Positions 3,266-8,667 of a stretch of 22,748 nucleotides of DNA are shown one piece after another (position 1 is the first letter of the stretch; the number at the start of each line of letters is the position of its first letter). The notes below the pieces were generated by a model. The model did not search any database. It worked only from the letters and a program-made list of their open reading frames with translations, and was not told the origin of the DNA. This stretch comes from a virus. Position numbers and translations under genes: made by a program. The DNA is taken from positions 1 through 22,748 of IMG/VR virus record IMGVR_UViG_3300037090_000039; one strand, 5' to 3'.

Positions 3266-3615
3266 GATTCTCTTTCTGGATAGGGTTCGACTTGGGGCGG
3301 TGGGATGCGACCAATGCCAAGTGAGTGATTAGACATTGAGCGGATATACCCATCTATACGCCCATAATAAAGTCCCACTGCTTTCTGCATGACCTCGGGA
3401 TTTTTGTCTATTCCGGGTTCCCCGAGATGAAAGAATACACAACCATTACTAGCTGGCTTGTCCTCGGTACTCTTCATTTCACCCACGAGAAAAAGTTGCC
3501 GATTGTACTTAGCAAATAGCTCATGAAGACCTTTGCTGGCTTCCATTAGAAGCGCATCCACATCTGGAAGCTTATCCGTCTCAACGGTTTTTCCGTTTAC
3601 GTGTTCGAGTTTCAT
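3262..3615 (-). CDS. Hypothetical phage protein (117 aa)
   Basis: Starts with ATG at 3615, overlapping the stop of the upstream glycosylase-like gene by four bases (ATGA), and itself overlaps the next small gene by ATGA. The N-terminal third is helical (ALLMEASKGLHELFAKYN), the middle looks like beta strands (QLFLVGEM, GCVFFHLG), and the C-terminus is rich in Pro and Glu. There is no signal peptide, metal motif or membrane segment. No family was recognised. The tight coupling suggests co-expression with the surrounding small genes. Confidence 0.75.
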   Translation of the reverse strand: MKLEHVNGKTVETDKLPDVDALLMEASKGLHELFAKYNRQLFLVGEMKSTEDKPASNGCVFFHLGEPGIDKNPEVMQKAVGLYYGRIDGYIRSMSNHSLGIGRIPPPQVEPYPERES

Positions 3616-4139
3616 ATGGTTTTGGTTGGCCAGACATAGGGCAAATCCTTAGAGATTCCCATGAAAAATTGGCCGTAGTGTTCGGGGTTCTTTCTGAGTA
3701 AATTGGATTGGTGAGATAAATGAAACGCCTCATTGCCTAACCAAGATGGCATTTTCGTTTTGACGCCGACATTTGTCGGTCGGAAGCCAACTTCGATGGC
3801 CTTTTCCCAACAGGTATCCTTGTAGCCGAGGCGTACCCACTCCGCACAGATTTCACGCAAATACAGCATGAGACCAGTTTCGTATCCTTTCCACATCTGA
3901 ACTGCGGGATGATTATACCATCCTGTGCGCTTGAGTGATGCCTCGCAGTAATAACAGTGATACCCCGTCTTATGCTCGTTGAAGTGGGTCACTGGCATCT
4001 TGCAACTCAAACAAGTCCATTCGCCCTGCTTGAGAGTGCGGAGGATTTGCAGACATTCTACTCGTTGCTTCCCGAGGCGTTTTCGGTCTAACACTTCGGC
4101 GGTTAGATGGAAATTTGAGTATGGCAGGAACGTTTGCAT
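3612..4139 (-). CDS. Pyrimidine-dimer-glycosylase-like protein (MSMEG_6728-type) with zinc-finger insertion
   Basis: The N-terminus MQTFLPYSNF with VLDRKRLGKQRVE (17-28), the central NHPAVQMWKGYE (76-87) and the C-terminal PSWLGN (131-136), SHQSNLLRK (142-150), PEHYG and DLPYVWP match, by memory, the bacterial MSMEG_6728-type family often annotated as a pyrimidine dimer DNA glycosylase relative. A repair role at damaged DNA is therefore possible but not proven. Relatives usually run straight from the Leu-Arg helix into the NHPAV segment; here residues 40-71 add a C-x2-C ... H ... C-x2-C unit (C43, C46, C62, C65). The ATG at 4139 matches the family start; an in-frame TTG at 4175 lies upstream. 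It lies 13 bases after the TonB-like gene, and its own end overlaps the next gene by ATGA. Confidence 0.75.
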   Translation of the reverse strand: MQTFLPYSNFHLTAEVLDRKRLGKQRVECLQILRTLKQGEWTCLSCKMPVTHFNEHKTGYHCYYCEASLKRTGWYNHPAVQMWKGYETGLMLYLREICAEWVRLGYKDTCWEKAIEVGFRPTNVGVKTKMPSWLGNEAFHLSHQSNLLRKNPEHYGQFFMGISKDLPYVWPTKTI

Positions 4140-4152
4140 TGTAGGAAGTGTA

Positions 4153-4758
4153 TCACAGCCCCTCGGCTGTGTCAAACCTTATTTGGAAATGATTTGGAAA
4201 CCCTTTTGGAGGCGGTCTGGATAAAATCTTGACTTTCGCCAAGGTATCATTAACCGATTTCGTCCACTCTTTATCACCAGTATTGGATACAATGGCGATG
4301 GGAGATATTTTACCTTCGGGAGTTATGCTTATCTCGACGAGGGTTTCATAATCTGACTGTGGCGTATTCCACTGTGATTTGATATGAGATTCAATGTATG
4401 CTTTGTAAAGCTGAATCGGGTCTGTCACTGTGTTCACTTCCTTGGCCCCATCTGAGAAGTTGATGGCAGGCATCTCTGCTGGCGGGGGAGCAGCAGCAGG
4501 AGCAATAGATGGCAACGGTGCTTGCACAGTTTGTGGAACCGTTTTAGGCTGCTCCGTTGGAAGAGCGACTTTTGGAGTTTCTACCCGTGGTTGTTCAACC
4601 TTCGGCTTAACTTCTTCCACCTTGGGCTTTGGCATAAGAACCACGCTTAACGTTTGCATTTTCTTCCCTAACATTCCTTCGTGAGAAGCGAAGAAAATGA
4701 GAGGAACGATAATAAGAACGTGAAAGACTGCCGCTATGATTAGGTTCTGTTTTCGCAT
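4153..4758 (-). CDS. TonB/TolA-like envelope protein
   Basis: The layout is that of an energy-transducing TonB-family protein. There is a short basic N-terminus and one membrane segment (residues 6-23), a Pro/Lys/Val/Glu-rich periplasm-spanning linker (about 42-97), and a C-terminal alpha/beta domain (about 115-197) with QWNTP, a V-x-I-x-I strand before PEGKI, a stretch SNTGDKEW, and PPPKGF before the last strand. The ATG at 4758 shares its A with the upstream stop (TAATG); an in-frame ATG at 4770 would add four residues. At 201 residues it is near the usual size for small TonB proteins. TonB couples inner-membrane proton force to outer-membrane transport. In a phage it could alter receptor function, uptake or lysis, which is inference. 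No ExbB or ExbD gene is in the window. Confidence 0.8.
   Translation of the reverse strand: MRKQNLIIAAVFHVLIIVPLIFFASHEGMLGKKMQTLSVVLMPKPKVEEVKPKVEQPRVETPKVALPTEQPKTVPQTVQAPLPSIAPAAAPPPAEMPAINFSDGAKEVNTVTDPIQLYKAYIESHIKSQWNTPQSDYETLVEISITPEGKISPIAIVSNTGDKEWTKSVNDTLAKVKILSRPPPKGFPNHFQIRFDTAEGL
4154..4171 (-). repeat. Inverted repeat at the TonB-like stop codon
   Basis: CACAGCC and GGCTGTG form a 7-bp stem around a 4-base loop, spanning the last codons of the TonB-like gene. No T-run follows on either strand, so it is not a convincing terminator. It lies 14 bases before the ATG at 4139 and could affect translation of that gene. Confidence 0.35.
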
Positions 4759-4940
4759 TATGCCAAGCATTTATGACAATGGAATCTTGCTTCGACGTAA
4801 GTGTTTTTGTGAGGGCAATCTATTCTGACAATTACCGCCTCACTATCCTTAATGGTGGTCAGAAAGTTGTACAAATCCAACTCGCTTTTTCCTGTGGCCC
4901 ATTGGGTATCAGTTGTGGTCCGCTTGTACTTGATTTTCAT
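4758..4940 (-). CDS. Small zinc-finger-like protein (60 aa)
   Basis: A 60-residue protein that starts in an ATGA overlap with the end of the ADP-ribosylglycohydrolase gene and ends in a TAATG overlap with the TonB-like gene. It has a CPH segment (C42, H44) and HCHKC near the end (H54, C55, C58), which could bind one zinc ion. The N-terminal half is basic and then forms a probable helix (ELDLYNFLTTI). There is no membrane segment. No family was recognised. The stop/start junctions on both sides make it part of one translationally coupled unit with its neighbours. Confidence 0.65.
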   Translation of the reverse strand: MKIKYKRTTTDTQWATGKSELDLYNFLTTIKDSEAVIVRIDCPHKNTYVEARFHCHKCLA

Positions 4941-5767
4941 AGGATAAACCCGAGATGAAATCTATCGGGGCCGCATTTCTCATAGAATGAGTTGACTGTC
5001 TCAATCATCTCGGGAGTCAGGCGATTCTTAGCCTCGGCAATCATAAGGTATGGAATAGAATTGACCCCATAGAATGACTCCGCAATCGCTCCTGCAATAG
5101 CAGCAATCGTATCTGTATCTCCCAACGAATAGACGGCGTTTCGGACTGCCGATTCATAGTTGCTCGATGCCAAGAAGCATATCAATGCCTGTGGGGCAGT
5201 GAGGTTGCAACGAATATCTCGTGATGTCCAAGCACGCAAATATTCCAGATTATGCTGGACCATGTGCCCGTATTGCTCTTGCACTCGGGCCTTGATTTCT
5301 TCTCTAGTGGCTCCATTCCGAGCCATCCAAATAGCATCCACAATGGATTGAACGCCACGAGCGGACTCAGGAGAACTGTGCGTGTAAGCAATGCTTTGTA
5401 AGGCTCGCTTCAATGCCAATTCTCGGTCCTCATAGAGCATGGCAATAGGGCTGCATCGCATCATACACCCATTAGCATAGCTATTGACCACGGAGAAGTT
5501 TGGACTCGCCATCCATTCCTTAAATTTGCTGCCGTAGCCCCTGTCAGGATAGCGCATTCCCCATTGCTTGTATTGCTGTGCGAATCTACGAGGGAATGGA
5601 GAAAGTGACGGGCGCATTAACGCCTGTGCGGTAGCACACGTTAAAACGCTGTCATCTGTAAAGCGGGAGTCGGGGCTAAACAAAGGGAACTCCGTTGTAG
5701 TCACAGAGCGTCTATATCCCCCTTCGTAGGGAGACCCAACTATGTCACCGATTATTGCGCCAATCAT
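4937..5767 (-). CDS. ADP-ribosylglycohydrolase (DraG/ARH family)
   Basis: Removes ADP-ribose from modified proteins or nucleic acids using two Mg ions. The family hallmarks are present: GAIIGDIVGSPYE at residues 3-15, FTDDS at 36-40 (T37, D38, D39 as metal ligands), SYANGCMMR at 96-104 in place of the usual GNG-x-x-MR, and LGDTDTIAAIAGAI at 215-228 (D217, D219, T220 as metal ligands). The length of 276 is normal for the family. The start ATG lies four bases after the stop of the nucleotidyltransferase gene, and the stop overlaps the small zinc-finger gene by ATGA. In phages such an enzyme could reverse host ADP-ribosylation defences (for example DarT-like or other toxin marks) or reverse phage-made modification; both roles are inferred. 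The GNG-to-ANG change is the only visible deviation. Confidence 0.92.
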   Translation of the reverse strand: MIGAIIGDIVGSPYEGGYRRSVTTTEFPLFSPDSRFTDDSVLTCATAQALMRPSLSPFPRRFAQQYKQWGMRYPDRGYGSKFKEWMASPNFSVVNSYANGCMMRCSPIAMLYEDRELALKRALQSIAYTHSSPESARGVQSIVDAIWMARNGATREEIKARVQEQYGHMVQHNLEYLRAWTSRDIRCNLTAPQALICFLASSNYESAVRNAVYSLGDTDTIAAIAGAIAESFYGVNSIPYLMIAEAKNRLTPEMIETVNSFYEKCGPDRFHLGFIL

Positions 5768-8367: not shown

Positions 8368-8667
8368 TCAGTCCAATTGTAGCAGATTCTTGCCAGATGT
8401 CAAGCGAGCATATTTATGGATGAACTTTGGTGAGATGTACGGGACTATATCGGGGGTTTTGTAGAGCGGTATGTAGGGGGCGTAAACCGCCCCTGTTTCA
8501 AGGAATTGAGAGCCTTTGTAGCCAACCAAATAACTGCCATCGGGTTCGGGGCGAGTACGAAAAATCTCCCGTTTCCTCTCTTGAGGCTTGAAAACCGATA
8601 GTGAAACTCCAAAAGCACCGGCGAGAACACCGAGATTTCTGAGAAATCCACGTCTCGTTAGCGCCAT
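8368..8667 (-). CDS. Short protein with Tat-like signal and capsid-like C-terminal segment (99 aa)
   Basis: Residues 4-26 read as a twin-arginine type signal: TRRGFLRN followed by a hydrophobic stretch (LGVLAGAFGVSLSVF). The remainder contains VGYKG, then ETGAVYAPYIPL (57-68) and HKYARLTSG (84-92). To my eye this follows the order of segments near the C-terminus of gp23-like major capsid proteins (V-G-Y-K-G, C/A-P-Y-V-P-L, R-Y-G-L), but it is far too short to be a capsid protein. The ATG at 8667 is chosen over a GTG at 8676 because AAGGTGG ends five bases before it. The first ten bases overlap the end of the GMP reductase gene. The function is unknown, and export through the Tat system is not demonstrated. 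Confidence 0.6.
   Translation of the reverse strand: MALTRRGFLRNLGVLAGAFGVSLSVFKPQERKREIFRTRPEPDGSYLVGYKGSQFLETGAVYAPYIPLYKTPDIVPYISPKFIHKYARLTSGKNLLQLD
8376..8403 (-). promoter_or_regulatory. Possible sigma70-type promoter
   Basis: The minus strand reads TTGACA (8398-8403), a 16-base spacer, then TACAAT (8376-8381), close to the host housekeeping consensus. Transcription would begin about three bases before the ATG at 8366, giving an almost leaderless message. It lies inside the last codons of the upstream gene, so a chance match cannot be excluded. Confidence 0.35.

Follow-up and report, generated by a model that had tools for sequence, protein, structure and literature searches.

TolA and TonB, which transmit force from the inner membrane to the outer one, serve as entry points for many phages and bacteriocins into Gram-negative cells. 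What, then, might a phage gain from encoding a transducer of this type itself? The question is raised by the window analysed here, which is the whole of a 22,748-nucleotide stretch of viral DNA (IMG/VR record IMGVR_UViG_3300037090_000039, positions 1 to 22,748). An earlier note, made from the sequence alone, had placed a TonB/TolA-like protein at positions 4153-4758. The coordinates of this frame stand, but its strand had to be corrected: the gene runs on the minus strand (4758→4153), and the plus-strand reading across the same interval is full of stops. The gene and its immediate neighbours are as follows:

4153-4758, minus strand: TolA/TonB-like protein P0001, 201 aa (open frame, PF13103, relatives and dN/dS)
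4758-4940, minus strand: 60-aa ORF upstream of the tonB-like gene (counterpart also in the relative L001)
4937-5767, minus strand: ADP-ribosylglycohydrolase, upstream neighbour (PF03747, E 1.5e-35)
3612-4139, minus strand: pyrimidine-dimer DNA glycosylase, downstream neighbour (PF03013, E 9.3e-22)

The stop codon of the 60-aa ORF overlaps the tonB-like start in the sequence TAATG, and translation of the two is likely to be coupled via this overlap. On the other side, the glycosylase gene starts either 13 bases past the tonB-like stop or overlapping it, depending on the start codon chosen.

The contig belongs to a T4-superfamily phage. Its assignment to a phage genome in the earlier note is borne out by the genes for terminase, portal and prohead protease that the contig carries, and the nearest named relatives are Flavobacterium immuto phages and Microcystis phage Mel-JY01 (approximately 48-51% for terminase and portal). 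Three relatives of the tonB-like gene were found in IMG/VR, one identical (L001) and two at 81% (L002) and 80% identity (L003), the last of these on a contig of 106,775 bases. Since the window and all three relatives carry the gene within a conserved phage gene order, host contamination was ruled out. Among the three distinct homologues, pS is 0.66-0.73 versus a pN of 0.10-0.15, with constraint on the membrane part, the spacer and the C-terminal domain alike. Because dN/dS is only 0.05-0.08 while synonymous sites are near saturation, the gene is selectively maintained to make this protein.

Searches for further relatives by tblastn found none among 50,697 GenBank phages or among the PLSDB plasmids, and none appeared in a scan of GTDB species genomes by a method that detects close relatives only. 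Of 78 phage records searched with PF13103, one gave a match, namely the already known relative, and PF03544 gave one sub-threshold match in 33 records; PF13103 misses some TolA/TonB types, as an E. coli control was left unmatched by the model. No description of a phage-encoded TonB or TolA transducer was found in the open-access literature.

To which family does the protein belong? Its parts were delimited as follows:

4669-4755, minus strand: N-terminal membrane helix, residues 2-30 (AF2 helix; A9-x3-H13-x6-L20-x3-A24)
4636-4656, minus strand: putative motor-box-like hydrophobic stretch QTLSVVL, residues 35-41 (from its position after the helix)
4429-4626, minus strand: proline-rich spacer, residues 45-110 (Pro content and low pLDDT)
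4156-4425, minus strand: C-terminal TolA-III/TonB-like domain, residues 112-201 (PF13103 and modelled fold)

The earlier note had proposed a TonB/TolA identity for the C-terminal domain, to be given up if profile and structure comparisons failed to match, and this identity survives both. The Pfam TonB_2 model (PF13103) matches residues 117-195 with 45.8 bits against a cut-off of 22 (E 6.8e-12), and it exceeds the cut-off in all homologues. The NCBIfam tolA model (TIGR02794) matches in part, with 30.8-37.5 bits against a cut-off of 59.45 (E 1.8e-7 to 1.5e-9). The TonB model TIGR01352 stays below its cut-off of 27.1 with 17.6-19.6 bits, and PF03544 gives 14-15 bits against 24.6 in the L002 and L003 homologues and is unlisted for the window protein. 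In an AF2 model built on three sequences, with an overall mean pLDDT of 57, the C-terminal domain is predicted to fold as helix-strand-strand-helix-strand (block-mean pLDDT 68-83). When this modelled domain was compared by VIA-align, seven TolA-III entries scored Z 8.0-9.4 and two more Z 5.9-6.1, versus Z 4.3-7.0 for TonB-type domains, and the first rows of a Foldseek search against the PDB were mostly TolA-III. Because TolA-III leads in both comparisons, the domain as modelled is closer to TolA-III than to TonB, whereas in its overall size and its spacer the protein resembles TonB or a proline-rich TolA from outside the gamma-proteobacteria. Taken as a whole, the 201-aa protein is almost certainly a member of the TolA/TonB force-transducer superfamily.

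Other searches returned little. The C-terminal profile against PDB sequences gave weak chance matches and, at E of about 1, two TolA chains of the P. aeruginosa type, PHROGs held no significant family for the 201-aa protein, and the predicted viral structures of BFVD yielded no convincing TolA/TonB-like fold match. TAL-effector repeats, which came up when the whole protein was searched against PDB sequences, matched the spacer and were rejected as a low-complexity artefact.

The membrane anchor and the proline-rich spacer of the earlier description are both upheld, the former by a best 19-residue Kyte-Doolittle mean of 2.9 at residue 6 and the latter by 18% Pro over residues 31-113 (83 residues). 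The motor-binding motif of E. coli TolA and TonB is spaced S-x3-H-x6-L-x3-S, and residues A9, H13, L20 and A24 of the phage helix are in register with it. This SHLS motif is common to TolA and TonB (PMC12204202), and its His is essential, as H22A in TolA and H20A in TonB abolish function (PMC10666116). His13 and Leu20 do not vary among the three distinct homologues, each of which has Ala at both Ser sites. As both Ser positions of SHLS are thus replaced, motor binding by the AHLA-type helix may be weaker than, or different from, that of SHLS, judging by the residues at these positions.

Beyond the helix, TolA and TonB carry a motor box that forms a strand after the membrane segment (PMC12204202). 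The corresponding stretch in the phage protein, QTLSVVL, is conserved in homologues, and the AF2 model has no strand there, in a low-confidence, disordered part. Indeed, nearly all of residues 26-110 have a pLDDT under 50 and are modelled as disordered. Polyproline-II helices rise about 3.1 angstrom per residue, and on this basis spacer residues 45-110 could reach about 200 angstrom, enough to cross the periplasm.

If the protein is a transducer, which motor would drive it? The claim that no ExbB/ExbD partner is encoded nearby holds in the window and in the 106,775-base relative, both of which are fragmentary records. Neither MotA/ExbB/TolQ (PF01618) nor ExbD/TolR (PF02472) was matched in the window or its relatives, these records being fragments outside which a motor could lie; likewise, no TonB-dependent receptor plug (PF07715) was detected in the window or relatives, all fragments. 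TolA proteins are assigned by context, being encoded with tolQ, tolR, tolB and pal (PMC12204202). A profile search for two of these, tolQ (PF01618) and tolR (PF02472), gave no match in the window or the 106,775-base relative, both fragments. Given that motor genes are missing from the available sequence, the likely partner is a motor of the host. TolQR and ExbBD can stand in for each other when overexpressed (PMC7391070), and domains of TolA and TonB can be exchanged with activity kept (PMC10666116, PMC12204202); a foreign transducer could therefore engage a host motor. A protein that depends on a motor of the host and on a target in the outer membrane is in keeping with a Gram-negative (diderm) host, as are several ORFs with a lipobox in the relative G003. 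A scan of GTDB with the terminase for a host link returned one unclassified MAG contig at 50%, which was not useful.

Based upon these features, the explanation that we favour, with somewhat more confidence than doubt, is that of a phage-borne force transducer without a motor of its own, which competes with or replaces host TolA/TonB. His13 and Leu20 would mediate docking of the helix on a 5:2 motor of the host, either TolQR or ExbBD; the periplasmic part of that motor would be engaged by the motor-box-like stretch, and the proline-rich spacer would stretch over the periplasm. The TolA-III-like domain would then grip an outer-membrane partner (TolB-like or a TonB-box) by beta-strand addition, so that the proton motive force might be coupled through TolQR or ExbBD to that partner, by analogy with the known systems. 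On the assumption that Tol-Pal or Ton is present in the host, host TolA/TonB would be outcompeted, redirected or replaced during infection and the cell's energised routes of entry would change. A possible benefit is that rival phages and bacteriocins dependent on Tol or Ton would be shut out. Use of the host motor by the phage transducer is, in our view, probable. Competition with host TolA/TonB and the ensuing exclusion are plausible, though here we lean slightly towards doubt.

Several other roles could account for such a gene. The tonB-like gene is accessory and lies at a variable site, since L008, which is 85% identical in the glycosylase, keeps both flanking genes and two NADAR genes at the same site and has no tonB-like gene. 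The gene directly follows a different upstream ORF each time. Also present in the L003 interval are a ClpP-like protease, a TnpB-like ORF and two NADAR genes, and L002 has two small ORFs there along with one that is NADAR-like. As guanine ADP-ribosylation is reversed by NADARs (PMC11125620), the site may be a moron, counter-defence or NAD/ADP-ribose island. With same-site neighbours that include ADP-ribosylglycohydrolase and NADAR genes, the protein could be a counter-defence decoy whose helix and motor box bind and jam the ZorAB motor of the Zorya defence system, a relative of TolQR/ExbBD in the 5:2 class (PMC12204202, PMC11890865). We regard this as very improbable, as the conserved TolA-III-like domain would be superfluous for a decoy and no link to Zorya was seen. 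A role in lysis is improbable too. A protein that competes with TolA late in infection could weaken the outer membrane and aid progeny release; the outer membrane becomes unstable when TolA and TolB no longer interact (PMC4339652), and a TolA mimic could have the same effect. However, the surrounding genes concern ADP-ribose and DNA repair and do not form a recognised lysis cassette, no lysis gene was recognised among the scanned neighbours, and the close relative L008 must also leave its host without this gene at the site.

The protein could instead be a functional supplement, extra TonB/TolA that, with host synthesis shut down, sustains the uptake of nutrients or iron or the stability of the outer membrane. 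The motor-coupling features are kept except for two serines, all domains are under purifying selection, as a working transducer would need, and the phage carries another metabolic gene, a homologue of IMP dehydrogenase/GMP reductase. Yet the available sequence has no TonB-dependent receptor plug, and the host can be expected to have its own TolA/TonB from the start of infection; we consider a supplement rather unlikely. Returning to a motorless transducer that competes with or replaces its host counterpart, we also entertain, tentatively, a wider version, in which a "free" transducer takes over TolQR/ExbBD (or ZorAB) motors and thereby brings about superinfection exclusion or counter-defence by transducer mimicry.

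How does the phage protein compare with known systems? Like TolA, it combines a single N-terminal helix bearing the essential His, a putative motor-box-like stretch, a periplasmic spacer and the TolA-III fold as modelled (TolA domain III structures compared: 2x9a, 1lr0, 6s3w and 4g7x). Unlike TolA, it is phage-encoded, has no tolQ/tolR found nearby, reads AHLA for SHLS and shares about 20% identity, and its spacer is proline-rich where some TolA proteins have a helical one; a proline-rich spacer is also found in many TolA proteins outside the gamma-proteobacteria (PMC12204202). With the TonB of ExbBD-TonB it shares size, a proline-rich spacer, the three-domain plan and the PF13103 match. It differs from TonB in the weaker match to the TonB-type fold, in PF03544 and TIGR01352 scores below cut-off, and in that no exbB/exbD or receptor gene was found.

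Phage products that act at this step are familiar. The phage exclusion proteins Cor and Llp target Tol/Ton entry routes. Filamentous phage G3p binds TolA-III and competes with TolB for TolA (PMC4339652), a precedent at the same point. The Tol/Ton step is where the phage protein, too, should act, but G3p, Cor and Llp are ligands or receptor blockers, whereas the 201-aa protein is homologous to the transducer. If it works, the phage would rewire the trans-envelope energy coupling of its host instead of blocking a receptor, and a natural transducer of 201 aa would be a small tool for asking which parts of TolA/TonB suffice for motor engagement. A Cor-like identity was considered for two lipoprotein ORFs of G003 and rejected, as the weak matches covered the signal peptide only and were not significant.

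A number of minor observations were made on these contigs. The variable island beside the tonB-like gene spans 4937-5767 in the window, L003:6140-8022 and L008:1473-2458. In L002 (4833-5768) the pyrimidine-dimer glycosylase gene is split by an insert, probably a homing-endonuclease element, that carries a LAGLIDADG-like ORF (5167-5628). A protein of 99-102 aa with a twin-arginine-like/hydrophobic N-terminus is conserved in the relatives (window 8368-8667, minus strand; L003:520-828, plus strand). This N-terminus is followed by a short segment from the C-terminal part of the T4 major capsid protein Gp23 (PF07068, E 9e-6), with 35% identity over 66 aa to the L003 capsid protein. The frames that match terminase and portal in L111, L112 and L113 extend to about 2.8-3.1 and 4.2-5.9 kb, much longer than the genes of the window, which suggests in-frame inserts such as inteins. 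Finally, G003:1-39500 (L169, L170) encodes several small lipobox proteins, and 34 tRNA genes are predicted in the first 28 kb of that contig.
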